Source: Acidobacteriota bacterium
GTDB taxonomy: Bacteria; Acidobacteriota; Terriglobia; Bryobacterales; Bryobacteraceae
Assembly (NCBI GenBank): GCA_016870995.1
Contig: VFZU01000009.1
Span: forward strand, 39,860-103,859
Direction of reading: 5' to 3'
Length of the DNA: 64,000 nucleotides
A program made the translations under genes and the position numbers. The notes below the pieces were generated by a model. That model had not been told where the DNA came from. It was given only the letters and a program-made list of their open reading frames with translations, and ran no database searches. Below, piece by piece: positions 13,706 through 36,287 of the stretch (the first letter of the stretch is position 1; each line of letters starts with the position of its first letter).

Positions 13706-14080
13706 TCAACCACGCTTTTCATACTGCATCGCGCCCGCCACATTCCCCTCTGTGTCTTGAAAGAAGATCAACGTACCAACTCCCGGGATGGTCACTTTCG
13801 GCATAAGAATCTTGCCGCCCATCTGCTCCACCGCCGCCTGTGTGGCATCGATGTCTTCGACCCCGAAAGAACACTCCATCCCGATCATCTTCAAACCCGG
13901 TGCCAGCTCGCGCCGCTGCTGTACGGCAACCATCACGCCAGCGTCGGAACTGTTAAAGAACCCGGGCGGACCCCAAGGCGCAAACTTCCAACCGAACACG
14001 GTTTCGTAGAACTTCTTGCCCCGCTCAACATCGTCACAATTCACCGCAAAATGTGTCAGTTTGTTCTGCATGGCACTCAT
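13706..14080 (-). CDS. VOC (glyoxalase/bleomycin resistance) family protein
   Basis: A 124-residue vicinal oxygen chelate protein with two beta-alpha-beta-beta-beta modules: LTHFAVNCDDVERGKKFYETVFGWKF at the start (His, FYE, GW pattern; residues 8-33) and ECSFGVEDIDATQAAVEQMGG then FQDTEGNVAGAMQ in the second half. It resembles the small single-domain members of unknown substrate. Cytoplasmic. It is divergent from the AraC regulator gene, whose start lies 48 bp away, so the regulator may control it. A deleted partial copy of its end is at 10992-11085. Confidence 0.85.
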   Translation of the reverse strand: MSAMQNKLTHFAVNCDDVERGKKFYETVFGWKFAPWGPPGFFNSSDAGVMVAVQQRRELAPGLKMIGMECSFGVEDIDATQAAVEQMGGKILMPKVTIPGVGTLIFFQDTEGNVAGAMQYEKRG

Positions 14081-14127
14081 GTTTGCATGAGTTTGCAGTT
14101 GGCAGTTCTGCGATATTCTGTCAATCG

Positions 14128-14916
14128 ATGTCGAAAATACGTCACGACGGTTCCATCATCCGAACCTTTGGCGTCACGTTTCATTCCTCTCAAACGCTTC
14201 AGTACTCGGTCTTTGGTTGGGACCAATTGATCTACGCAATGGAAGGCGTGCTCGCGGTTCAGGTGAGCGAAGGCGTATGGACCCTGCCCGCCCATCGCGC
14301 ACTTTGGGTTCCCGATGGCGTAGAGCATTCCATTCATATCGCTCATTCCGCATCGATGCGCTCGCTCTACTTCCGGGCCGGATCGATCCGCCACCTGCCG
14401 CGCAGATCCAGCGCTCTAAATGTATCTCCGCTGCTGCGCGAACTCATCTCGGCATGCATTGAACTGGGAGCTCTCTCGAGCCGCAAGCCCGCCCACCGGA
14501 GACTGGCCGCCGTGATTCTGGATCAGATGAAAACGATTCCGAGCGTACCCTTGCAGTTGCTCATGCCCAAGGATCCACGCGCAGTGGCCGTGGCTGTGTA
14601 CCTTCGCGGCAACCCCGCCGCGTCGCTAAGCCAGGCGGCGGCACATTCTGGCTCCAGCCTGCGCACGCTGGAGCGCCTGTTTGAAAGTGAAACGAGAATG
14701 CCCTTGGGCGCCTGGGCTCGGCGGCTACGCATTCAAGTTGCGCTTGAATTCATGGCGAGCGGATCTGCCGTCGGCGAGGCCGCGATGCGCTGCGGCTACA
14801 ACAGCCCGAGCGCCTTCATCAGCATGTTCCGGCGGGAACTCGGCGTTACGCCGGGAGCCTATTTGGGCACGAGTCGACAACACACGCAAACAGCGCGTGC
14901 CCGCAAGCGATCGTGA
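14128..14916 (+). CDS. AraC family transcriptional regulator with cupin sensor
   Basis: A 262-residue regulator. The N-terminal half is a cupin (QLIYAMEGVLAVQ, HRALWVPDGVEHSIHI) and the C-terminal 100 residues are two helix-turn-helix motifs (SLSQAAAHSGSSLRTLERLFE; VGEAAMRCGYNSPSAFISMFRRELGVTPGAY). The ATG at 14128 is chosen because the cupin begins soon after it; the longer frame starts inside the neighbouring gene. From about 14872 the reading frame runs into a broken PQQ-dehydrogenase fragment, so the last 15 residues (after YLGT) are not native. The DNA-binding domains are complete, so it may still work. Confidence 0.85.
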   Translation: MSKIRHDGSIIRTFGVTFHSSQTLQYSVFGWDQLIYAMEGVLAVQVSEGVWTLPAHRALWVPDGVEHSIHIAHSASMRSLYFRAGSIRHLPRRSSALNVSPLLRELISACIELGALSSRKPAHRRLAAVILDQMKTIPSVPLQLLMPKDPRAVAVAVYLRGNPAASLSQAAAHSGSSLRTLERLFESETRMPLGAWARRLRIQVALEFMASGSAVGEAAMRCGYNSPSAFISMFRRELGVTPGAYLGTSRQHTQTARARKRS

Positions 14917-15076
14917 TGTGCTGCTTGCCATCCGCTCCGATGTAGCTCACCGGATTGGCGAATGCCTTGCCACCCACTGGATCCTCACACAACAGCTTGC
15001 ACGTTGTGTCATCGTGCGCGATCATATCGTCCTCTACTGTCGCGGAAGACACCAGGCTGTGGAAAGCACTCCGCTC
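14872..15076 (-). pseudogene. fragment of a PQQ-dependent dehydrogenase gene, 3' end
   Basis: About 205 bp matching 26957-27169, the end of the PQQ dehydrogenase gene, in the same orientation with roughly 85% identity by eye and one small deletion. The translated match runs from DDTT and GKAFANPVSYIGADGKQH to HALFACVVD. The stop codon of the original is lost. It is either a degraded duplicate of the gene at 26956 or the remains of a paralogue. The right edge lies about 180 bp before the first receptor gene. Confidence 0.85.
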
Positions 15077-19962: not shown

Positions 19963-20787
19963 GTTTGTGTTGCAAAGATCCGCCACACACACGGGGAGCA
20001 CCGTATTCCGACGGTTCGTGGAGAGTCAGGCGGCTAGGCCGAACAGGGTGTGCATCAACAGGAGTTGGCGGTGGACATCGTCTCCAGCGACCCACCGCAC
20101 CTGCCCCTTCCTCAACATGTGCACCGCCTCGTAGCCTTCGATCGTGCGCCACGCGGCGCCAAACGCGCGAAAGCTCTGTTTGGCATTCACCCGCTTCTTG
20201 ATCGCCCGGTGGTCCTGTTCCATGATGTTGTTCCAGTACTGCACCGGTCGGTGTCGGCAGCGCCGACCGATCATGCCGGTCCGCTGCAACTCGGGGATCG
20301 CCGACATATAGGTGGGCGCCAAGTCCGTGTTGATCACACGTGGCTGAGGATGAGCGCCATGGCGCAGCGCGCGGCGAAACAGGCGCTTGGTGGCCTCCAG
20401 ATCGCGAGACTCCGACAGGTAGAACTCAATCGTGGCACCCTGCGAATCGATGGCCCGATACAGATAGCACCAGCGGCCTTTGACCCGGACGTACGTTTCA
20501 TCCCCGCGCCAGGACCGGTTGGTAGGCTTCAAATGAGGGCGCAGCCGGAACAGCAGTTCCGGGGCGAAGCGCTCGACCCAACGCCAGATGGTGGAGTGAT
20601 CGACACTCACGCCGCGTTCAGCCAGCAACTCCTGCACATCGCGATAAGACAGGCTAAAACGCAGGTACCACCGAACCGCGCAGAGAATGATCTGCGGCTC
20701 GAACTGTCGCCACTTGAAGATCACGGGGCGTCGCTTCATAGGCTCCTCCAGGCTACCCGTAGGTCGCCGAGTCTTTGCAACACAACC
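19963..20787 (-). mobile_element. IS6-family insertion sequence, intact
   Basis: About 825 bp bounded by imperfect inverted repeats GTTTGTGTTGCAAAGA (19963-19978) and, inverted, GGTTGTGTTGCAAAGA (right end 20772-20787). The TGTTGCAAA core is typical of IS6 ends. It holds one transposase gene on the minus strand. I see no clear 8-bp target duplication. It sits between the sulfatase and the second receptor gene. Confidence 0.88.
20026..20739 (-). CDS. IS6 family transposase
   Basis: A 237-residue DDE transposase. After a zinc-less N-terminus (MKRRPVIFKWRQFEP) comes the helix-turn-helix (LSYRDVQELLAERGVSVDHST) and the catalytic triad: Asp in RGDETYVRVKGRW, Asp in INTDLAPTY and Glu in MEQDHRAIKKR. 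All three are intact, so the protein should be active. The ATG at 20737-20739 is used; the open frame continues further upstream across the end repeat but that part has no family similarity. A decayed relative is at 24609-25094. Confidence 0.92.
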   Translation of the reverse strand: MKRRPVIFKWRQFEPQIILCAVRWYLRFSLSYRDVQELLAERGVSVDHSTIWRWVERFAPELLFRLRPHLKPTNRSWRGDETYVRVKGRWCYLYRAIDSQGATIEFYLSESRDLEATKRLFRRALRHGAHPQPRVINTDLAPTYMSAIPELQRTGMIGRRCRHRPVQYWNNIMEQDHRAIKKRVNAKQSFRAFGAAWRTIEGYEAVHMLRKGQVRWVAGDDVHRQLLLMHTLFGLAA

Positions 20788-20912
20788 AGTCAACTTAAGG
20801 ACACCGGCCAAGCGGTTGATCACCAAAGAAGGTCCGATGCGTTTCCCAAAGAGCGCTCTGCAAGTGCCTTGAGGTGCTTGTGGTCTCGGTTGATCTGCGC
20901 AACAATTCTGGA

Positions 20913-23900
20913 ATGAAGGTTCAACTGTTCTCACTTCTATTGGTTTTGTGCTATGCGATGCGGGCGCAAACAACAGGAGCCAGCCTTCAGGGATCCGTCC
21001 TCGATCCCGGAGGAGCCGCAATTGCCAACGCATCCGTCGAAATCCGCAACACCGAAACCAATGTCTCGCGGACCCTCACCACCGACACGGAAGGACGCTA
21101 TCGCGAACCGCAACTGTTGCCGGGCAGCTACGAGATCCGCGCCTCGGCGCAGGGCTTCCAAACCACCATTCGCAAGGGCGTCACTCTCGCCGTCGGCCAG
21201 GACGGACTCATCGATTTCCGCCTGGAAATCGGACGCACCGACAGCTCCATCACCGTCACCGAAGACGTCAGCCCGATCAACCTCGTCAGCGGATCCCTCA
21301 CCGGACTCGTCAACCAAAGCCAGATGCGCGACCTGCCTCTCAACGGACGTTCGTTTCAACAACTCGCGGTGCTGCAGCCCGGCGTCATCGGACTCACCTC
21401 CGCCGGCAACGACGTCGTGGGTGGACGCACTCCGAAAATCTCGATCAATGGCGCCCGCCCCGAAGGATCCAGCTTCCTGCTCGATGGCACGGACATCAAC
21501 AATGTCTATAACAAGACTCCGGGATCGGTGGCGGGCGTGCTGCTGGGTGTCGAAGCCGTGCGCGAATTCGTGGTGATGACCAATGCTTATTCGGCGGAAT
21601 TCGGACGGTCTTCCGGTGGTGTTCTCAATGCCGTGACACGATCCGGAACCAACGAATTCAATGGATCGCTGTTCCACTTTCACCGGAATTCCGCGATGGA
21701 TGCCAAGAATTTCTTCGACCCCGCCGCGAGAAAGATTCCGGCGTTCAAGCGCAACCAGTTCGGAGGCGTGCTTGGGGGACCCATCCGGCGCGAGAAGACC
21801 TTCTTTTTCGGGGCTTTTGAGTCGCTGATCGAGCGCCTGGGCGTCGCCGGGCTCACCAACGTTCCCGATGCCGACGCGCGCCGCGGCATCCTTCCGGGAC
21901 GTCCGCAGTTCCAGATCCATCCGCTGATGCCGCAGTATCTGTCCACCTTTTTCCCCATGCCCAATGGACGCAACCTCGGCGGCGGACTCGCGGAATACCA
22001 ATTCAACAACTCGCAACCCACCAATGAATACTTCGCGCAGGGTCGCGTCGATCACCGAATTTCCGACAAGGATTCGTTGTTTGGACGCTTCACCTTTTCG
22101 AACGGCAACGTCATCCGCCAGGTGACCGCGAAGCCTCCGGTCAACACAACCCAAGAGCGCTCGCGCAATCAGTATCTGACGCTTGAGGAACAGCACATCT
22201 TCACTCCGACGCTGGTCAATACGCTGCGCCTGAGCTACGCGCGTTCGGTGTCGGAGGCCAACAATGTCCGCACGGTCCAAATTCCCCGGGAACTCAACTG
22301 GCTCCCGCAGGAGCCCTTCGGCTACTTCACCATCACCGGTGTCGTGACCGAGGCCGCGGGCGATTTCCGGCTGCCTCGCAATGATTATCTGAACAATTAT
22401 CAGTGGCACAATACGATGTTCTGGACGAAGGGCGCGCACGGCATCCGCTTTGGCGGTGAAGGCCAGCGGATGCAGTTCAACCAGAACACAACCTCGCAGC
22501 AAGGCGGCATTGTCACCTTCAATGGCCTCGAGAACTTCTTGCGTGGCGTGCCCCTCAGTGCCGATTTCGCTGTTCCCGGCAAGATCGATCCGGTGCGCGG
22601 GTATCGGCAGAGCCTCTTCGGGTTCTTCCTCCAAGACGACTATCGCGCGAAGCCGAACCTCACGATCAATCTCGGCGTTCGCTACGAATTCATCACCGTT
22701 CCTACCGAAGTCAACGGCAAGATTTCGAACCTGCGGCGGGTGACCGATAGTGCGCTCACGATCGGATCGCCGTGGCACAGCAACCCGTCGCTCAGGAATT
22801 TCAGTCCACGCGTCGGCATGGCGTGGGACCCGTTCAAGAGCGGCAAGACCTCGGTTCGCGCGGGATTCGGCATCTTCTACGATCAGATTCTGCCGCGTTA
22901 CTACTTTTTTTTCCGGCAGCTTGAATCCGCCGTTCACCACGCGCACAACCCTCCCGAACCCGCCTTTCCCAAACATTATTCAGAATTTCGACATCAACGC
23001 GCCCATCCGCGCGCAGTTGCAGACCGTCAACTTCGACCTGCAGCCCGGCTACGCGCTGCAGTTCAACGCCTCGATCCAGCGATCCATCACCAAGGATCTG
23101 GACATCACGATCGGCTATGCCGGATCGCGCGGGGTCCATCTGTTCCGCATCGCGGACGCGAACCTTGCGCCCGAGACCATTGTCGGCGGCATCAAGACCT
23201 ACCAGCCGACGCTCGGTCGCCGGAACCCCAACTTCACCACCATCACCCAGCGGATTTCGGATGCGCAATCCTTCTACAACTCACTGCAGGTTACGGCGGC
23301 GAAGCGCATGTCCGGCGGACTGCGGGCGCAGGTTTCGTATACGTTTTCGCGCGCGGTCGACGATTCGAGCGGCATCAATTCCCAGGATTTCGATTCCAGT
23401 GCGACCTATTCGATAGATTTCTACGACCGCAAGGCGGATCGGGGACTTTCCAGTTTCTGGGCGAAGCACGTGATGGTGGCGAACTGGTCCTACGAATTGC
23501 CGTTTTTCCGGAACGGCAATGGACTCAAAAAGGCACTGCTTGGCGGCTGGCAGTTGAACAGCATCACGACGGCGCAGACAGGGCACCCGTTCGAGATCCG
23601 TCTCGGATTCAATCGTTCCGGCAATCTGAACACGACGGCGTTTTCGTTCCGCGAGCGCCCGGATGCGGTGGCTGGCTGCGATCAGGTGAACGGCGGCCCG
23701 GATCGTTACTGGAACATCAATTGTTTCACCTTGCCGGCGGTCAACACGCGCGGGAATCTCGGACGCAATACGCTCATCGGGCCGAGTCTCGTCATGATGG
23801 ATGCATCCCTGTTCAAGGAATTCAAGTTTGACGGATCGCGGAATCTGCAGTTCCGCGCGGAGATTTTCAATCTGCCGAACCGTCCGAATTTTCAAATTCC

Positions 23901-24048
23901 GCCCTCGGCGAACCGCACTGCGTTCACGGCAGTCACGCGGGATGCGCAAGGCCGTGAAGTGCCCACGATTCCGGGATCCTGGGGCAGGATCACTTCAACC
24001 GTGACCACCTCGAGACAGATCCAACTGGGAATGAAGTTCACGTTCTAG
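20913..24048 (+). pseudogene. TonB-dependent receptor, Oar-like, frameshifted at a T8 run
   Basis: A second receptor of the same type, about 1045 codons if one base is removed. The ATG at 20913 gives MKVQLFSLLLVLCYAMRAQ as signal peptide, then the carboxypeptidase-like domain (ASLQGSVLDPGGAAIANA), plug (LNGRSFQQLAVLQPG) and barrel. At 22905-22912 there are eight T; with seven, the frame continues YYFFSGSLNPPF and then through to the terminal Phe of MKFTF at 24043-24045. As written, the protein goes out of frame after about residue 665 and runs into unrelated sequence. This may be a real mutation, a phase switch, or a sequencing error at a homopolymer. The domain order and C-terminus are otherwise intact. 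A truncated sulfatase overlaps its stop. Confidence 0.85.
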
Positions 24049-26955: not shown

Positions 26956-28497
26956 TTAGTCGACAACAAATGCAAACAGGGCGTGCCCGCAAGCGATCGT
27001 GATGTGCTGCTTACCATCCGCCCCGATGTAACTCACCGGATTGGCGAATGCCTTGCCGCCCATCGGATACTTCCACAAGAGTTTGCCCGTAGTGTCATCG
27101 AGCGCGATCATGTCGCCATCAGCTGTCGCGGCAAACACCAGGCCGCCAGCTGTAGACAGCACTCCGCTCCACGAGGGCGAGCTCATCGGATATTCCCACT
27201 TCGCCTTCCCCGTCTTCGGGTCCATTGCCTTGATCGCTCCGCTGGCTTCTTCGCCGGGCTTCGACACGAACCGGCCAGCCAGATACCAGCTACCTTCTTT
27301 GTAAGTATCGTCGCCGGAATAGAACACACCACCTTCGTCGCGGGTCATGACGTAGTGCAACTTCGTAAGCGGGCTGTAGGAAGGCGCTTGAAAATTCGTC
27401 GCACCGGGCGAGTTCGGATACACAACCGTGCCACCAGGGGTGGGCGCAGTGTTTGGCATCCGCGTCGGGCGGCCCTTGTCGCTCAGCTCCGGCTGAGCCC
27501 AGGTCTGCCGTACATACTGCTTGCCCAACAAGTACTCGCCCGTCGTGCGGTCGAGCACATAGTAGAACGCATTTCGATTCGCGAACAACACGAGCTTCCG
27601 CATCTTGCCGTTCCACATCTCATCCACCAGGATCGGCACCTGTGTGGAATCGAGATCATGCACGTCGTGTGGCGTGAACTGGAAGTGCCATTTCATCTTG
27701 CCGGTGTCGCCGTCAATCGCGAGCAGGCAATTGGAATAGAGATTGTCTCCGGCGCGCTTGTCGCCCTTCCAGTCTGGGCCAGGATTCCCTGTGCCCCAAT
27801 AAATCGTATTGATCTCCGGGTCGTAGCTACCCGTCACCCAGGTGGTCGCCGAACCATACTTATAGCTGTCGCCAAGCCAGGTCTCGGTGCCTTTTTCTCC
27901 AGTGGACGGCACGGTCCATAATCGCCAGGCTTCTTTGCCGGTCTTAGCCTCATAGGCGGCCAGGTAGCCGCGCACACCAAACTCGCCGCCAGCGCTACCA
28001 ATCACAACCTTGTCCTTCACGATCAGCGGCGCGACGGTGCTCGAATAACCCTTCTTGTAATCCGCAACAGCAACGTCCCAGACCACATGGCCAGTGGAGG
28101 CATCCAGCGCCACCAGGTGCGCATCCAGTGTCCCGATAAACACGAGGTCGCCGAGAATGGCAGCGCCGCGATTGACACGGCCGCAGCAATACGGCACGTT
28201 ATCCGGCAACACGCGCTTGTAACGCCACAGCACCTTGCCGCTGCGGCTCTCGAGAGCCGTCACATCGCTCGGCGGCTCCGACACATACAGAATTCCGTTG
28301 TGCGCAATCGGGCTCGCCTCGAACTTATCCGTCTTATCGAGCTGGAACGTCCAAGCCGGACGCATGCGTGCCACGTTCGTCTTGTTGATCTGCTTCAGTG
28401 CCGAATATCGATGGCCCTGCGGATTGCCCTGAAAGTGCATCCAATCCTGGCCGAACATCAGCCCGGCCGCGGCCGTTAGCAACAATACGCTCTTCAC
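26956..28497 (-). CDS. PQQ-dependent alcohol dehydrogenase, methanol/ethanol type
   Basis: A 513-residue periplasmic quinoprotein that would oxidise small alcohols and give electrons to cytochrome c. After a signal peptide (residues 1-16) come eight W-type propeller repeats. The vicinal disulfide cysteines are Cys104-Cys105 (PYCCGRVNRG). Metal and PQQ residues are Glu172 (GGEFGVRG), Asn238 (WGTGNPGPDW) and the catalytic base Asp281 in HDVHDLDS. Asp283, two residues after, corresponds to the extra Asp of XoxF and PedH enzymes that use lanthanides instead of calcium (MxaF has Ala). It is the last gene of the cluster; its ATG overlaps the cytochrome c stop. Its end is duplicated at 14872-15076. 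Shorter than usual (about 600), so the C-terminal cytochrome domain is absent. Confidence 0.9.
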   Translation of the reverse strand: MKSVLLLTAAAGLMFGQDWMHFQGNPQGHRYSALKQINKTNVARMRPAWTFQLDKTDKFEASPIAHNGILYVSEPPSDVTALESRSGKVLWRYKRVLPDNVPYCCGRVNRGAAILGDLVFIGTLDAHLVALDASTGHVVWDVAVADYKKGYSSTVAPLIVKDKVVIGSAGGEFGVRGYLAAYEAKTGKEAWRLWTVPSTGEKGTETWLGDSYKYGSATTWVTGSYDPEINTIYWGTGNPGPDWKGDKRAGDNLYSNCLLAIDGDTGKMKWHFQFTPHDVHDLDSTQVPILVDEMWNGKMRKLVLFANRNAFYYVLDRTTGEYLLGKQYVRQTWAQPELSDKGRPTRMPNTAPTPGGTVVYPNSPGATNFQAPSYSPLTKLHYVMTRDEGGVFYSGDDTYKEGSWYLAGRFVSKPGEEASGAIKAMDPKTGKAKWEYPMSSPSWSGVLSTAGGLVFAATADGDMIALDDTTGKLLWKYPMGGKAFANPVSYIGADGKQHITIACGHALFAFVVD

Positions 28498-29246
28498 ATC
28501 GCACCTCGCAGCGAAAACAGATAAGCAATCAAATCGGTCATCTCGGCACCCGAGAACACCTTGCCATAAGCCGGCATCGAACTCTTCGTCAGGTCTCTGT
28601 CGATCTTCGTCGCATCGGCCTTCGCGAGCGTTTGAATTTTGCCCTTCGAGTCGCGCAGGCTGATGTGGAAGTTATCTTCGTTCATCCGGATCCCGCTTAC
28701 CTTGGTGCCACTCTTCAAGGTCACGTGCACCATAGTCCAGCCGCCCACCATGGCAGCATTGGGCTCAACGATGGAGGTCCTTAGATTCGACGGGCTCCGC
28801 ATTGCACCAATCAGGGTCAGATCCGGCCCCATCTTGCCGCCCACACCACCCACCATGTGGCAGCCAGCGCAACCGCCTTTGCCCATGTAGATCGCCTTGC
28901 CGTTAGCGGCGTTACCTTCAACACTCACCGGCGCGCTCCGTCCCAGCGAGCGCACGTATCCCGCCACCTGCAGCATCTCCTCGTCGCTCATGCCCAGAGC
29001 CGGAGGCATATCCGTTCCCGGAATGCCCACGCGGATGATATTCACCAGCGAGCTATCCGTAGGTGCGTGCACCAGATTCGGCGTCACAAGATTGGCAGCC
29101 ATGCCGTCATCGCCCTTGCCATGGCAGAAGGCGCAATGAAACTGGTAAAGCGTCTGGCCATTGCGCAAGCTTGCCTCGTCCATCGGGGCCTTCACTTGGG
29201 CAAACGCTGCCATCGCGAACCATAAACTCAAGATGGTGTTTCGCAT
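28494..29246 (-). CDS. diheme cytochrome c
   Basis: A 250-residue periplasmic cytochrome with a signal peptide (residues 1-16) and two c-type heme sites, CAFCH (38-42) and CAGCH (126-130). Methionine ligands are likely in MPPAL (after IPGTD) and MPAYG. The second half has an extra domain about VTLKSGTKVSGIRMNEDNFHISL between heme 2 and the end; this resembles the loop found in Planctomycete/Acidobacteria cytochromes of the DUF1549-like type. It is the probable electron acceptor of the PQQ dehydrogenase, whose start overlaps its stop (ATGA at 28494-28497). Confidence 0.9.
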   Translation of the reverse strand: MRNTILSLWFAMAAFAQVKAPMDEASLRNGQTLYQFHCAFCHGKGDDGMAANLVTPNLVHAPTDSSLVNIIRVGIPGTDMPPALGMSDEEMLQVAGYVRSLGRSAPVSVEGNAANGKAIYMGKGGCAGCHMVGGVGGKMGPDLTLIGAMRSPSNLRTSIVEPNAAMVGGWTMVHVTLKSGTKVSGIRMNEDNFHISLRDSKGKIQTLAKADATKIDRDLTKSSMPAYGKVFSGAEMTDLIAYLFSLRGAM

Positions 29247-29258
29247 GCTCGGTAGATC

Positions 29259-29891
29259 CTATCGTAAATTCGTTGACCCGCGCCACTCCCGGTACCACTT
29301 GGGATGGTGCAGGCGCGCCCAATTCGGGGTCACCCATCCCAACAACATCGCCCGCATCGACCGCGGCACCGACATCGTTCCCATGTAAATGTGAACAATA
29401 ATCCCTGCAATCGATCCTATCGCCGCCAGAGGATGCATCGCAATTGCGACTAGCCGCAAGCTACGAGGCATCCATTCGGGGAACCACAATACAACGCCGC
29501 TGACCATCAATAGGAGCGCCGTCACCACCTGGCTCCAGAACAACATCTTTTGCCCGGCATTGAACTTGCCGCTCTCCGGCAGCGCATCATGCTGATGCGT
29601 CGCATACTTATCCATTCGCGTAAGCCAAACGCGGTCGTCGGCATCGAGCCCCATCGTCTTGGCCCACCGGGCGAACATCCAGCCAATCACCGCCGTAAAC
29701 AAAACGCCCGACCATGGATGCGTCCCTCGGATCACAAATCCGCCGCCGGATAGTGCCGCCATCCAATACAACACGGGCGACCAGATCGCCAGGCCCGTCA
29801 GCGCCGCGTACAAGAAACTCAGCGCCGCCATCCAGTGCATGACGCGCTCGTAGCCGTCAAACCTTGCCACTCGCACTTCATTCGACTTCAT
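29259..29891 (-). CDS. formate dehydrogenase cytochrome b (gamma) subunit
   Basis: A 210-residue membrane protein with four hydrophobic segments (about 17-40, 53-75, 116-140, 150-172). Heme-binding His are in RVMHWMAAL, THPWSG, MHPLAAIG and VHIYMG. It is homologous to the FdnI/FdoI type subunit that anchors formate dehydrogenase in the membrane and passes electrons to quinone. The start at 29889-29891 is used; it overlaps the end of the iron-sulfur subunit gene by 14 bp. The gene to cytochrome c distance is 12 bp. Confidence 0.9.
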   Translation of the reverse strand: MKSNEVRVARFDGYERVMHWMAALSFLYAALTGLAIWSPVLYWMAALSGGGFVIRGTHPWSGVLFTAVIGWMFARWAKTMGLDADDRVWLTRMDKYATHQHDALPESGKFNAGQKMLFWSQVVTALLLMVSGVVLWFPEWMPRSLRLVAIAMHPLAAIGSIAGIIVHIYMGTMSVPRSMRAMLLGWVTPNWARLHHPKWYREWRGSTNLR

Positions 29892-30669
29892 CGGCGGCCT
29901 CCTCCTGCTGCGGGCCAAACACCACATAGTGGAAGAACGCCCCGAGAATCGAACCCATAAAGACCATCGCCCCAAGCGCCTTTAGCGGGCCCTTCCACAG
30001 CTGCACAGTCCAGGGAATGATCGGGTCCTTTGGCAAGCCATATTGCTCGGGCTGCTTGGCGTCGTTCAGAACATAGATCACGTTCGTGCCGCCGACACCC
30101 GCCGGATTGTAGATCCCGGCGTCCTTAAATCCATCCGCCTTCAGCTCGCGCGTCCGGATCTCCGCCACGCGGATCATCTCGTCGCGCTCGCCAAACGTCA
30201 GGCAATTCGTCGGACACGTCTTAATGCAGGCTGGTTCTAGTCCGACTGCGGTGCGGTCTGAACACAGCGAGCACTTGTAAACCTTCTTCGATGCCGGGCT
30301 CAGCTTCGGCACATCGAAGGGGCAGCCCGTGATGCAATAGCCGCAACCGATGCAGTTTTCATGCACGAAATCCACGGTGCCATTAGCTAATTGCGTAATC
30401 GCTCCCGGCGCGGGACACGCCGCAAGACAGCCCGCGTCCGCGCAATGCATGCACTGATACTTCGACATCAGCCACGCCTCGGCCCCATTGCGCTGGACTT
30501 CATTGAACTTGATCAGGTTCCAGAAATTCGGCGCCAGATCCGGCATCGTCTGATAGGACCCGTTGAACGTGCCAAGCGTATATTCCTGGTCGTTCCATTC
30601 CTGACACGCCACCTCGCAGGCTTTGCAGCCAATGCATAGAGTCGTATCGATGAGCTTAGCGACTAGCAT
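29878..30669 (-). CDS. formate dehydrogenase iron-sulfur (beta) subunit
   Basis: A 263-residue four-cluster ferredoxin-like subunit. Cluster cysteines are in CIGCKACEVACQEW (12-25), CMHCADAGCLAACP (around 73-86), CIGCGYCITGCPF and CSLCSDR with CIKTCPTNC. The C-terminal part has one transmembrane helix (LGAMVFMGSILGAFFHYVVFG) that anchors it, as in FdnH. It transfers electrons from the molybdopterin subunit to the cytochrome b subunit. The start shares its last base with the stop region of fdhA (both at 30669), so the genes are coupled. Confidence 0.93.
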   Translation of the reverse strand: MLVAKLIDTTLCIGCKACEVACQEWNDQEYTLGTFNGSYQTMPDLAPNFWNLIKFNEVQRNGAEAWLMSKYQCMHCADAGCLAACPAPGAITQLANGTVDFVHENCIGCGYCITGCPFDVPKLSPASKKVYKCSLCSDRTAVGLEPACIKTCPTNCLTFGERDEMIRVAEIRTRELKADGFKDAGIYNPAGVGGTNVIYVLNDAKQPEQYGLPKDPIIPWTVQLWKGPLKALGAMVFMGSILGAFFHYVVFGPQQEEAADEVE

Positions 30670-33600
30670 CAGATCTTCTCCAGATTCACGAGAAAGCCCT
30701 TGTATTCAGGCGTGCTTGAGTTCGGGTCGTAGGCGCTCGGCGTCAGGTTGTTGATGAGCGGGCCGGTCACCTTCCCGACAAATCCCCAGTGGATCGGCAG
30801 CCCCACGTGGTAAGTCTTTTGTCCTTGCACGAGCAAAGTGCGCAAGCGCTTCGTGACGAGCGCAGGTCCGTCGAGCGAACCGCGAGCCGAAGACACGCGC
30901 ACCATGTCGCCATTAGAAATTCCCTTGGCAGCAGCCAATTCCGCCGGAACCTCCACGAAGAAGTTCGATTGCAATTGCGAACTCGAACTTGTGTGCTTGG
31001 TCCAGTAATGAAAATGTTCGGTCAAGCGATAGGTGATCGCAACAAAGGGGAAATCTTTCGCGGTTCCGAAGGCTTCCGGCTCAGTCGAGTAAGTCTTCAG
31101 CATCGGGTTCGCGCTCGCGTTCTTATGCAGCGAATTCAATACCGGCGATTCGGCCGGTTCGTAGTGTTCCGGGAACGGCCCTTCCACCAAATCCGGCGCG
31201 AATAAACGCGCCACGCCCTCGGGCAGCATGATAAAGGCCGGCAGAGTTTCCGGCGGAGCATCGCCCTTGTAGTCAGGCACATCGCCCTTCCATCGATCGC
31301 CGTCCCATTTCAACGGGGCGCGAGTTGCGTCCCAGGGCTTGCCGGACTCGTCCGTCGAGGCGCGGTTGTAGAGAATGCGCCGGTTCGACGGCCAACTCCA
31401 GGCCCATTGCGGATACAACCCCAGCCCGGTCGGGTCCACTTGTCCGCGTCGCGACATCTGATTCCCGGCCTCGGTCCAGCAGCCACTGTAGACCCAGTTG
31501 CCGCATGCCGTCGAGCCATCGTCTTTCAACTCTCCAAACCCATTCAACTGTTTGCCTGTACCAAGATCCACTCCGTTCACTTCGCGCGCCACCTCGCTCA
31601 ACAAAGGCTTGTGCGGAAGGGCGTAGTCCCAACTCATATTCAGCAATGGAGCCGGATTTGCGCCGCCATCCTTTTGATAGAGGCGCCTCAATTCAAGAAA
31701 CAATCTCGAGATAATTTCCTGATCCCGCCAGGCCTCACCGGGCGGATCCGTAGCAGCTTCTTTCCACTGCAGCCACCGCGACGAATTCACAAACGCTCCA
31801 TCCTTCTCGGCAAAGTTTGCCGCAGGCAGCAGGAACACTTCCGTCTGGATCGAAGCCGCATCGAGTGCCTTCGGGTAATCCTTGCCGGCCAACTTCTTCG
31901 CCTGCCAAAACGCTGCAGTCTCGGTCTCGAAGTTCTCAGCAACGATCAGCCACTTCAACTTCGAGAGCGCCGTCAACATCTTCTTCGTGTTCGGCCCATT
32001 GGCCACCGGGTTCATCCCGAAGCTGATCAACCCTTCCACTTTGCCGTGGAACATGTCGTCGAAGAATGCACCCCAGGAATGGTCGCCAGTCTCTTCGATT
32101 TTCGGCAACCAGTCATAGCCGAAGCCATTCGCTGCCGTCGCATTCTTGCCGTAATACGCCTTCAGCAAACTCTTCATGAACTTCGGCGTATTGCCCCAAT
32201 AGTTCAAGCTCTTCGCCGCAAGTGCCTTCGGTGTATTGGCCTTCAAGTATTCGTCAAGGGTCTTCAAGTTGGCGCGCGGAATTTTCAGATACCCGGGCAA
32301 CATATTCCAGGCACCCATGTCCGTCGAGCCCTGGATGTTCGCGTGACCCCGTTGCGCGTTCACGCCCCCGCCGGGCATCCCGATGTTGCCCATCAGCAAC
32401 TGCACCATCGCCGCCGCATGAATCAATTGCACAGCAAACGAGTGATGCGTCCAGCCGAGAGCATAGAGCACCGTCCCGCTCTTGTTCTCCGCGGCAGCAA
32501 CCGTAATCATCTCCGCAGCCCGGACAAATTCTTCCTTCGTGCACCCACAAATCTCAGCCACCATCTCGGGCGTGTAGCGCGAGTAGTGTTTCTTCATCAG
32601 CTGAAATACGCTGCGTGGATGTTCGAGCTTGGGATCCGTCTTGGCATGCCCGTTTCCGTCGAGCTCATACTGCCAGGTCGCCTTGTCGTACTTCTTGCCT
32701 TCCCAGCCCGAGAAATGCCCGTCTGTAAAGCCAAAACCTTCGGCGATCAAGAAGCTCGCGTTCGTGTGTTGCTCCACATACTTCCGCTGATATTTGCCTG
32801 TCTCTAACGCGTAGTGAATCACCCCACCCAAAAACGCAATGTCCGTCCCCGACCGAATCGGCACATAGCAATCCGAAACCGCCGCCGTGCGCGTGAAGCG
32901 CGGATCGACACAAACGATCTTCGCCTTGCGCAGGCGCTTGGCCTCCATCACGAACCGGAACCCAACCGGGTGATTCTCGGCCGGATTTCCACCCATCACC
33001 AGCACAACGTCCGCGTTGGCGACATCCGTCCAACCGTTCGTCATCGCTCCCCTACCGAATGTGGCGGCCAAACTGGTCACCGTGGGGCCGTGTCAAAGCC
33101 GGCTTTGATTCTCGTAGGCCAGTAGCCCTAATCCAAACCGGAACTTACTCAACAAGTAGTTGATCTCATTGGTGTCCGTGCACCCACCGATCATCGCGAT
33201 GTTGTCCAGCCGATTCACGGTACGTCCCTGGTCGTCTTTTTCAACAAAGCCCTTGTCACGCGAGGCCTTGATCCGCGCCGCCATCATCGGGATCGCTTCT
33301 TCCCAGGTCAGATCGGTCCATTCGGTGGCCCCAGCCGCCCGATGCCGCACTTTGGTCAGCCGTCGATCGCTCTGAACGAATTCCTCAAGCGAGGCCCCTT
33401 TGGGACAAAGCGTCCCGCGGTTCACAGGGCTTTCCGGGTCGCCTTCGATGTGAATGATGGCCGGCTTCACATTCCGTGCCTTATCGCCGATCGTATGGAT
33501 CGTCACGCTGCAACCGACTGCGCAGTAAGGGCAGATTGAGTTGGTTTTGGTTGCATTCGCGGTCTTTAGCGCAGGAATGTGCGCAGCGCCGCTTGCCGTC

Positions 33601-33677
33601 CCAGTCGTTACCGCTCCAGCCGTTCCCGTCGCCGCAGTCCTCGTAATGAAATCCCGTCTTGATGATTGCTTGCCCAT
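30669..33677 (-). CDS. formate dehydrogenase catalytic (alpha) subunit, selenocysteine-containing
   Basis: A 1002-residue molybdopterin enzyme oxidising formate to CO2. The N-terminal Tat signal is SSRRDFITRTAATG. The [4Fe-4S] cysteines are CPYCAVGC and NRGTLCPKG. An in-frame TGA at 33093-33095 (residue 195) sits exactly where E. coli FdnG has selenocysteine: NQSRL-U-HGPTVTSLAATFGRGAMTN compared with the same context in FdnG. Reading through it gives one continuous FdnG-like protein; a plain gene finder would see two pieces, 33093-33677 and 30669-33080. Molybdopterin motifs continue (VVMGGNPAENHPVG; GMPGGGVNAQRGHANIQG). It heads the five-gene cluster. Confidence 0.93.
33055..33095 (-). promoter_or_regulatory. 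selenocysteine UGA and SECIS-like hairpin
   Basis: The TGA (33093-33095) is followed within 25 bases by a small stem whose tip reads CCAGUUUGG (about 33068-33076). The corresponding tip in E. coli fdnG is GCCAGUCUGGC, so both the position and the sequence match a bacterial SECIS that SelB would recognise. The remaining stem is weaker. selA, selB, selC and selD are not in the window. Confidence 0.75.
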
Positions 33678-33789: not shown

Positions 33790-34485
33790 ATGCGCATCCT
33801 ATCCATTCTGGCTCTCGTCGCCGCCGCACAAGCGGCGTCGATCCAGCTTAAACTCGACGCATTTCAGCTGATGCCCACCGGCTCTCAGTTTGCATTGCGA
33901 ATCCGAATGGTGGGGAAGAACGGCGTAGAACTTCCGAAAACTCTCCGCCTGACCAATCTCAAAGTAAACAACGCGGTCCTCGATCTCGACGCCACCACAG
34001 AAAGTGGCAAGATCTGGGGCAATCTCGATACCGGCCTCAACATGACCAATGACGGCGGCATTGATTTCACGAGCGGTTTGCTGATTTTCATCAACAGCGG
34101 CGCCAATTTGCCTCCGTTGCTGACCTTCGATCTGATCGACCCCGAAACGGGCCAGCGCTATAGCGCTGACGAATTCGGAATCTTCCTGTCTGAATATGTC
34201 CCCTTTGACTCGGGCTTCTCAAGCAGTTTTACCATCGGCGCATCCAATTCGCCCGGCGGAAACAGCTTCGGCTTGAGCGAAGAGAACATTCCACCACCTA
34301 CACCACCTGACCCGAACGACCCTCAAAATCCGCCCACAAATACACCGCCAGACACACCTCCCCCAAATTCGACGATCGATCCGCCTCCGAGCACGCCTGA
34401 GATCCCTGAGCCTTCGACTTATTTGATGGTGCTCTCCGCTTTGGGCGTGATCTCAAGCAGATACTCGAGCAAACGCGGCACGTAG
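33790..34485 (+). CDS. PEP-CTERM sorting domain protein
   Basis: A 231-residue exported protein. Signal peptide about residues 1-16 (MRILSILALVAAAQAA), a beta-rich middle (QLKLDAFQLMPTGSQFALRI; LTFDLIDPETGQRYSADEFG), a long linker of Pro, Thr and Asn repeats (TPPDPNDPQNPPTNTPPD) and then the PEP-CTERM tail: PEPSTYLMVLSALGV followed by a short basic end (SSRYSSKRGT). It should be cleaved by an exosortase and carried to the surface or extracellular matrix. Function unknown. It is divergent from fdhA, with 112 bp between. Its last 67 bp overlap the end of the convergent sulfatase gene. Confidence 0.82.
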   Translation: MRILSILALVAAAQAASIQLKLDAFQLMPTGSQFALRIRMVGKNGVELPKTLRLTNLKVNNAVLDLDATTESGKIWGNLDTGLNMTNDGGIDFTSGLLIFINSGANLPPLLTFDLIDPETGQRYSADEFGIFLSEYVPFDSGFSSSFTIGASNSPGGNSFGLSEENIPPPTPPDPNDPQNPPTNTPPDTPPPNSTIDPPPSTPEIPEPSTYLMVLSALGVISSRYSSKRGT

Positions 34486-36287
34486 GATCGCATCGACTCC
34501 ACCGCCTTGGGGTCTTCTTTGGACAGTTGAGCAATCCGCTCACGGTACGGCCTAAGCTTCTCCCCGCCAATCTCAGTCAGAGCATTCAGGGCTGCTATCG
34601 CCACGTAAACGCTTCCTGTCGTCGAATTAGCCGCCTTCAATAGGACTTCAACAGCAGGGGCCAGATCGCTGTCCTTTCCATAGCGAGCCAGAGCTTCAGC
34701 GGCCGCAACGCGCACATTCAGAGAATCGTCATTAAGGGCGCCGCGGAGAGCATTCTGAGTAACCTCTACTGCGGGTTTGCCCTGACCGAGGATGCCATTG
34801 GCGCACCAATAACGCACCGCACTGTCTCCGTCTTCAAGGTAGGTTCTGAAGATTTCCGGCTGCGTTCGCGTCGGCCCGGTAGCCAATTCAGCGGCATTCA
34901 TCACCCGCACAGCGGCAAATCGCTCATCATCTCGCGCCATAGTCCACGGCGCATCATCCTTGGCGCGTGCGTGAATTTCGTGCTCTGGCAAAAAGCCTAC
35001 GTCGCGAATCTTCACTGCCAGCCCGGTCTGCGCCGCCCTCAGGCGATTCATCTCCGATTTCTGCTCTGCCGTGGGCTTCAGCGCCAGGTTGTTCACTTCG
35101 TCCGGATCGTTCTGGAGATCGTAAAACTCCTCGGCCGGCTTTGTCTTCCAGAAGTGGCTCTGTGCCTCGTTCGCCTTGCCAGAATCGAATACTTCCTTCC
35201 ACTTCCTTGTCGTCGGCATCTCGAACATATAATCCACATGCTGCCCGTAGATGCGGTGCGGCATGTAGTTGCGGATGTACACATAACGCTGGTTGCGCAC
35301 GCTCCGCACCATATCGATCCGCTCGTCCATCCGCCCACGGAAACCGAAAATATAGTCCTGCTCCGGCTCGATGTTGGCTCCCAGAAACGCATAACCCTGG
35401 TGATAATCGGGCTTCTTTACCCCTGCGAGGCTCAATACTGTCGGGGCCAGATCCACGAAGCTCACCAAGCGGTCCGTCCAGCCACCGGCCGCATAGTCCT
35501 TCGGAGCCAGATGCTTGCACTGCTCCGGGATATGCACCATCATCGGCACGTGCAACCCACTGTTGTACGGCCACCTCTTCAACCTCGGCATCCCGGCCCC
35601 GTGGTCGGAGTAAAAGAACACGATCGTCGAATCCTTTAGCCCATCGGCCTCCAGTTCACCCAGTGTCTTTTTCACCATGCCATCCATCGTTTGGATGTTG
35701 TCGTAATACTGCGCCCAGTCACGACGCACTTCAGGAATGTCCGGTTGATAGGCAGGCACGCGGACTTCTTTCGGATCGTGCCGCAGCTTGTGACCCGGCG
35801 TGCGGATCTGGCTCTCATGCGTAATGACGTAATTAAACACGCTAAAGAATGGCTGCTTCGCGTCCCGCTTACGCCAATGCGCTTTGTTCGAGCTTTCGTC
35901 CCACACCTTGCCGGTATGCACGAGGTTGTAGTCTTCTTTCGAATTGTTCGAAGTGTAGTAGCCAGCCTCACGCAGCAAATGAGGAAACATCTTCTGCCCC
36001 GGCGCGAGCTTCGTCTTGCTCCGCATGTGTTCCGCCCCGGTCGACGGTGGATACATCCCGCTGATGATCGTCGTTCTGGCCGGCGCGCAGACCGGGGCAC
36101 AAGACCACGCGCTGCGATAGCGCAAACTCCGCTCGGCTAGCGAGTCGATCGTCGGGCTTGCTGCATGCTTGTCCCCATAGCACCCAAGATTTGGGCTCAT
36201 GTCTTCGCACGTCACCCAAAGAATATTGGGCTGCTTGGTTTGCAACAGTGGCGCTGCCGTGGTAGCAAGAAATTCGCGACGGTTCAT
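34419..36287 (-). CDS. sulfatase with C-terminal HEAT-like repeats
   Basis: A 622-residue type I sulfatase. An export signal (MNRREFLATTAAPL, with twin-Arg) leads into NILWVTCEDMSPN (first metal site). The formylglycine cysteine is Cys67 in CAPAR, a CxPAR variant of the usual CxPSR. The later metal site is FFYSDHGAGMPRLKRWPYNSG. After about residue 450 come HEAT-like helical repeats (AVRYWCANGILGQGKPA; LNVRVAAAEALARYG), probably for substrate or partner binding. It is a periplasmic protein. The last 67 bp lie inside the end of the PEP-CTERM gene on the other strand. Confidence 0.9.
   Translation of the reverse strand: MNRREFLATTAAPLLQTKQPNILWVTCEDMSPNLGCYGDKHAASPTIDSLAERSLRYRSAWSCAPVCAPARTTIISGMYPPSTGAEHMRSKTKLAPGQKMFPHLLREAGYYTSNNSKEDYNLVHTGKVWDESSNKAHWRKRDAKQPFFSVFNYVITHESQIRTPGHKLRHDPKEVRVPAYQPDIPEVRRDWAQYYDNIQTMDGMVKKTLGELEADGLKDSTIVFFYSDHGAGMPRLKRWPYNSGLHVPMMVHIPEQCKHLAPKDYAAGGWTDRLVSFVDLAPTVLSLAGVKKPDYHQGYAFLGANIEPEQDYIFGFRGRMDERIDMVRSVRNQRYVYIRNYMPHRIYGQHVDYMFEMPTTRKWKEVFDSGKANEAQSHFWKTKPAEEFYDLQNDPDEVNNLALKPTAEQKSEMNRLRAAQTGLAVKIRDVGFLPEHEIHARAKDDAPWTMARDDERFAAVRVMNAAELATGPTRTQPEIFRTYLEDGDSAVRYWCANGILGQGKPAVEVTQNALRGALNDDSLNVRVAAAEALARYGKDSDLAPAVEVLLKAANSTTGSVYVAIAALNALTEIGGEKLRPYRERIAQLSKEDPKAVESMRSYVPRLLEYLLEITPKAESTIK

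Follow-up and report, generated by a model that had tools for sequence, protein, structure and literature searches.

A 64,000-nucleotide stretch of an Acidobacteriota genome (hereafter the window; GenBank assembly GCA_016870995.1, contig VFZU01000009.1) carries a five-gene cluster in which the three genes for a predicted selenocysteine-containing formate dehydrogenase (FDH) are followed directly by genes for a diheme cytochrome c (cytC) and for a quinoprotein, a predicted alcohol dehydrogenase dependent on pyrroloquinoline quinone (PQQ). The arrangement recurs in related genomes, and we place at roughly 45% the probability that it represents a co-transcribed periplasmic unit that gains energy by oxidizing formate together with a small alcohol (most probably methanol, or the aldehyde derived from it). 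Both enzymes are of known kinds. What is new is their fixed union in one cluster, together with a lanthanide-type site in the quinoprotein and an apparent PQQ auxotrophy of the organism. No description of an FDH-quinoprotein pair was found among the titles and abstract openings of the literature screened.

The cluster occupies positions 26956 to 33677 of the window, with all genes on the minus strand in the order fdhA(UGA)-fdhB-fdhC-cytC-PQQ dehydrogenase. Successive junctions measure -1, -14, +12, and -4 bp, giving three overlaps and one gap (Table 1). A preliminary description of this DNA had reported the same five genes, strand, order, and coordinates, which open reading frames (ORFs) and family profiles confirm, and its statement that gaps are no larger than 12 bp and that three junctions overlap is exact. 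For every one of the five proteins, one or more fitting families give a score above the curated cut-off. Terminator-like sites number nine in the window, against 5.8 expected, and none falls between fdhC and cytC. Rfam and tRNA scans of all 64 kb gave no matches.

Recurrence argues for a genuine unit. When 257 genomes of the same order were searched with FdhA, 100 yielded a match at 1e-200, and 61 of 101 FdhA matches (60 loci plus the window) were examined; the other 40 are all at or below 55% identity. The five genes are contiguous and in the same order in nine genomes of two related genera, namely five in the genus of the window (g1: G000, G047, G049, G050, and G051) and four in a second genus (g22: G092, G094, G097, and G101). 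Two further g1 genomes (G048 and G052) have the cluster interrupted by contig ends where this would be expected, and their quinoprotein gene opens another contig or lies close to its beginning; the second contig of G048 begins near the fdhB start and carries fdhB-fdhC-cytC followed by the quinoprotein gene. With starts chosen by script, all 10 loci that include this junction (the nine contiguous ones and G048) have fdhC and cytC -4 to 22 bp apart, the fdhB-fdhC junctions of the other loci measure -8 to -14 bp, and cytC and the quinoprotein gene are separated by -4 to 8 bp everywhere but in G094. A disruption of the quinoprotein gene in that genome was rejected, as the interruption consists of N characters in the assembled sequence. 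Chance adjacency is rejected because the order recurs in nine genomes with such tight spacing. Thus, the same gene order in other acidobacteria, which had been put forward as the thing to look for, does exist, and the two modules do co-occur in relatives: besides the nine whole clusters, the g1 genome that lacks an FdhA match (G046) also lacks an orthologous quinoprotein at the thresholds used.

The association is also narrow. Among 45 other FdhA loci of the order, 37 extend at least 2.3 kb beyond fdhA and none of these has a cytC or PQQ-enzyme match of at least 50 bits in the sequence retrieved, while eight are too short; the 37 loci rule out the cytC-quinoprotein pair as a general partner of FDH. 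A second set of 80 FdhA loci, partly overlapping the first, includes the cluster twice (L011 and L012), and another locus (L009) ends 85 bp after fdhA. Distant PQQ-enzyme matches in this set are at 35% identity on the other strand (L027) and at 36% about 8 kb upstream (L086). Beyond the order, the linked quinoprotein clade was found in none of 399 genomes drawn from the class (1e-225), and all 11 matching genomes belong to the family of the window.

By profile, FdhABC is of the formate dehydrogenase-N (FDH-N) type, with predicted formate oxidation and quinone reduction: the alpha, beta, and gamma subunits all pass the curated cut-offs (1331 bits against 814, 363 against 335, and 177 against 116). 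It is like FDH-N in its three subunits, UGA codon, twin-arginine start, FdhB anchor part, and cytochrome b, and differs in that a cytochrome c and a quinoprotein follow in the cluster. The genome of the window encodes SelB (358 bits). Among named records, those with 87-89% FdhA identity are two 'Bryobacter sp.' metagenome genomes, in line with a most likely placement of the organism in Bryobacterales.

The quinoprotein is assigned to the type I PQQ alcohol dehydrogenases on the basis of its score above the TIGR03075 cut-off and its propeller fold. The structure comparison re-examined Foldseek's own list, from which the absence of other folds is no evidence. The residues found are Cys104-Cys105, Glu172, Trp220, Asn238, Asp281-x-Asp283, and Arg308, and thus the vicinal Cys pair, Glu, Asn, Asp, and Arg of the PQQ/metal site are all present. 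All tested PQQ/metal residues are kept in 11 of 11 FDH-linked quinoproteins. Asp281-x-Asp283 aligns with D323/D325 of PedH, with a manual residue count that was verified at position 412 (Val in 6zcv, Phe in 6zcw). The second aspartate is of the lanthanide type as in PedH and XoxF, and the enzyme is therefore predicted to use a lanthanide (rare-earth) ion. Unlike the lanthanide-dependent PedH of Pseudomonas putida (6zcw), the quinoprotein described here is encoded downstream of an FDH together with a diheme cytochrome c of the TIGR02603 type, has Ser in place of the pocket-entrance Phe, and comes from a genome in which no PQQ synthesis gene exceeds its cut-off. XoxF methanol dehydrogenases are less similar, with a score of 302 bits for 4mae compared to 350 bits for PedH. 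The genes that accompany acidobacterial XoxF3 are given as Cox, CtaG, CytC, NRAMP, YncE, and TonB, with no FDH named, in the excerpt of PMC10875860.

Several features of the genome bear on how such an enzyme might operate. PqqB, PqqC, and PqqE were not found above cut-off in the genome of the window (98.99% complete, 215 contigs), and PqqC exceeds its cut-off in 17 of the order's 257 genomes and in none of eight of the genus. The organism therefore appears unable to make PQQ itself, and the cofactor would have to be scavenged; many Gram-negative bacteria are described as taking PQQ from outside (PMC12124388). Fae has no match in any of the 257 genomes of the order. Formate-tetrahydrofolate ligase (FTHFS) was not found in the genome of the window and is present in two of eight genomes of the genus (G048, and as a fragment in G052), and glutathione formaldehyde dehydrogenase is above cut-off in none of the eight, the TIGR02818 matches in the genome of the window all being below. 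These absences point to dissimilation rather than growth on one-carbon compounds.

Given these features, it seems reasonable to propose the following scheme. Imported PQQ and a lanthanide would load the quinoprotein, which would oxidize a small alcohol, and the aldehyde on to formate, with electrons passing by way of the diheme cytochrome c to a terminal oxidase. FdhABC, exported by the twin-arginine route, would oxidize formate to CO2 at the periplasmic face and deliver electrons through its cytochrome b to quinone. Because FdhABC belongs to the FDH-N type and a cytochrome c gene adjoins that of the quinoprotein, electrons would enter the respiratory chain at two levels, in support of what the preliminary description had suggested. 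Its further idea of an alcohol-to-formate route in one cluster holds only in part: the five genes are one conserved unit, but alcohol oxidation is only a possible source of the formate, and the modules also occur apart. The preliminary description made no mention of the lanthanide-type Asp-x-Asp, of the missing PQQ biosynthesis genes, or of the four paralogues with incomplete active sites. With one-carbon compounds fully oxidized before they reach the cytoplasm, the cell would be spared formaldehyde. Should methanol be the substrate and formate the product of the quinoprotein, the cluster would amount to a complete methanol-to-CO2 line.

This strictest form of the proposal would be a hard-wired periplasmic one-carbon line in which a lanthanide-PQQ enzyme takes methanol to formate and a selenocysteine-molybdopterin (or tungsten) enzyme takes formate to CO2, with scavenged PQQ and no known cytoplasmic formaldehyde routes. 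We regard it as rather doubtful. XoxF is reported to take methanol to formate in vitro, and whether the product of lanthanide methanol dehydrogenases in the cell is formate or formaldehyde is debated (PMC8498564). In a set of 38 genomes with XoxF, only three were found to have a formaldehyde pathway and most encode formate oxidation, and XoxF can oxidize formaldehyde (PMC10875860). PedEH and formate-oxidizing enzymes of P. putida act on one-carbon compounds (PMC10308882). If the one-carbon line exists, it would be a natural example of a lanthanide alcohol dehydrogenase whose physiological product is formate rather than formaldehyde, and the fixed pairing with a periplasmic FDH would allow this question to be tested. 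Acidobacterial energy supply would then also be linked to two trace elements (selenium and probably a lanthanide) and to a scavenged cofactor. If only the weaker reading holds, there would still be a conserved cluster of two respiratory enzymes.

A number of observations weigh against the proposal of a co-transcribed unit for formate and small-alcohol oxidation. A promoter scan found no promoter-like sites anywhere, compared to 2.7 expected in shuffled sequence, and is uninformative as to a single transcript or separate promoters. The local fold at the TGA codon is no better than chance relative to shuffles (z 0.81), and FdhA is present in G052, where SelB is only a fragment below cut-off (this genome is 79% complete). 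Among Acidobacteria, the PQQ importer PqqU is reported only in Vicinamibacteria in the excerpt of PMC12124388, and the in vivo product of XoxF5 in M. extorquens is given as formaldehyde, not formate (PMC8498564). The position of PedH F412 at the pocket entrance is Ser in 18 of 18 orthologues compared, and the pocket may therefore be wider than a strict methanol enzyme needs, although the structure model is weak at this point (block mean pLDDT, a per-residue model confidence score, of 62). Of the 513 positions, only two show a residue that all members of the linked clade share and no unlinked orthologue has, and neither is a tested active-site residue; nothing visible in the sequence thus points to a change of substrate on linkage to FDH. 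Finally, five g22 relatives (G083, G090, G091, G093, and G095) have fdhA (79-80% identity) and fdhBC without the cytC-quinoprotein pair, and seven orthologous quinoproteins (G006, G022, G023, G148, G232, G233, and G236; 73-77% identity) lie with their own cytC away from fdh, with three of these seven genomes lacking any FdhA match at 1e-200. Neither module, then, strictly depends on the other.

This separability is one reason to consider that the two enzymes might instead serve as parallel electron donors under one control, with formate and a multicarbon alcohol (ethanol, or plant or fermentation alcohols) oxidized under the same conditions and their products not linked. Such an arrangement is a serious possibility, even if we judge the odds to be against it. 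It accords with the small residue at the pocket entrance, with the failure to find the tested methylotrophy markers in the genome of the window, and with the best sequence match being PedH, which was tested with ethanol in PMC5487730. However, it leaves unexplained why, of five cytC-quinoprotein cassettes, the one with the whole tested active site is fixed behind FDH.

The same set of five copies invites a second explanation, in which the quinoprotein is 'empty' and works without PQQ, either as a scaffold for the diheme cytochrome c or as its partner in electron transfer. Pairs of cytC and quinoprotein genes are known in acidobacteria (cf. TIGR04528), and the FDH-linked genes form the same two-gene cassette, of which the genome has four more copies. 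In these four paralogues (C82, C86, C23, and C28 of G000; L002-L005), each with its own cytC, the vicinal Cys pair is missing, and two also have Asp in place of the metal-binding Glu. They are candidate quinoproteins that have given up PQQ, encoded by a genome in which no PQQ synthesis gene scores above cut-off. Only the FDH-linked copy keeps the whole tested active site, and in this it differs from the other pairs. The score of the linked quinoprotein to the TIGR04528 'acido-empty-quinoprotein group A' model is high at 505.1 bits, similar to the 501-533 bits of the paralogues, and the dearth of PQQ synthesis genes in genome, genus, and order also speaks for an empty protein. Yet all five scores fall below the TIGR04528 cut-off of 650, whereas the linked protein reaches 541 bits against 480 for TIGR03075, and its tested PQQ/metal residues are intact in every linked sequence. 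We therefore consider this explanation quite unlikely.

The history of the cluster bears on whether its gene order has any functional meaning. The cytC gene is directly upstream of the quinoprotein gene at 36 of 37 distinct places (46 rows, 44 of them with cytC, less nine re-fetched places), with the lone miss at a contig end, and the pair is thus a standing cassette in itself. The 11 cluster quinoproteins (nine contiguous, two split) form one clade with support of 100/99. With the FdhA tree alone, parsimony cannot tell one gain and two losses from repeated gains; one gain is favored because of the quinoprotein tree and a comparison of two g22 genomes. In G097, a 341-amino-acid gene starts about 4.9 kb after fdhC, behind the cassette, whereas in G095 its homologue (88% identity over 129 residues compared) starts about 0.5 kb after fdhC, as would be expected if G095 had undergone a deletion. 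The simplest account would be that an ancestor of the two genera captured the cassette once, downstream of fdhC, and that g22 then lost it at least twice. As a separate observation, the 341-amino-acid protein (L132:13398-14423, L133:8940-9965) has no Pfam match.

Flanking genes are only partly shared among the cluster genomes. One downstream gene is common to G047, G048, G049, and G050 and another to G092, G094, and G101, and neither has a match within the 3 kb that follow the cluster in G000 or G097; an upstream sulfatase gene is common to G000, G047, and G049. Because some flanking genes are shared within each genus, part of the gene order may be plain inheritance. All five genes are, to judge from substitution patterns, under purifying selection, with ratios of nonsynonymous to synonymous substitution (dN/dS) of 0.006-0.165 in 33 of 34 pairs over the five genes (one pair has no usable dS); these ratios are rough, because 23 of the 33 dS values exceed 1. 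A historical accident, by which the pair landed once behind fdhC and was carried along since, would agree with the single clade, the shared flanks, the apparent deletion in G095 that left FDH, and the absence of the cassette from four other close relatives, but it is very unlikely given tight spacing in all 10 loci despite synonymous distances of 0.4 to above 1 and only partly kept flanks, and given purifying selection on both cytC and quinoprotein genes.

Table 1. Features of the cluster and a related sequence in the window
Feature	Position	Strand	Details
fdhA, formate dehydrogenase-N alpha subunit	30669..33677	-	1002 amino acids; twin-arginine start SSRRDFI; TIGR01553 1330.9 bits vs cut-off 814
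In-frame TGA, codon 195 of fdhA, read as selenocysteine	33093..33095	-	sole in-frame TGA; single TGA also in close relatives
fdhB, iron-sulfur subunit with C-terminal transmembrane part (Form-deh_trans, PF09163)	29878..30669	-	TIGR01582 363 bits vs 335; 1-bp overlap with fdhA
fdhC, cytochrome b subunit	29259..29891	-	TIGR01583 176.9 bits vs 116 (protein searched from 29882); ATG at 29891 gives 14-bp overlap with fdhB
cytC, diheme cytochrome c	28494..29246	-	two CxxCH; signal-like N-terminus; TIGR02603 91 bits vs 68; 12-bp gap after fdhC
PQQ-dependent alcohol dehydrogenase (quinoprotein)	26956..28497	-	513 amino acids; GTG start; signal-like N-terminus; TIGR03075 541 bits vs 480; 4-bp overlap with cytC
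Partial diverged copy of the 3' end of the quinoprotein gene	14872..15076	-	about 210 bp, 84% nucleotide identity; beside AraC-type regulator gene (14053-14916 +)

Some additional observations concern selenocysteine and the surroundings of the cluster. A selenocysteine insertion sequence (SECIS) hairpin was examined as support for the selenocysteine reading of the TGA codon and gave no such support, given the z value above and a weak alignment-based fold (50 distinct rows, including one wrong TAG row, L156). SelB is not above cut-off in G046. Among the genome matches listed, the partial copy at 14872-15076 has the highest identity to the quinoprotein (78%), apart from the gene itself. Upstream of fdhA and on the same strand lies a gene for a sulfatase with HEAT repeats (34419-36287, minus strand), with counterparts in G047 and G049 at 75-78% identity. 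Elsewhere in the window, two overlapping plus-strand ORFs (20874-23831 and 22750-24048) match the first and second half of the outer-membrane barrel model PF25183, and the gene for this TonB-type protein therefore looks frameshifted; it adjoins an IS240-type transposase gene (20026-21033, minus strand).
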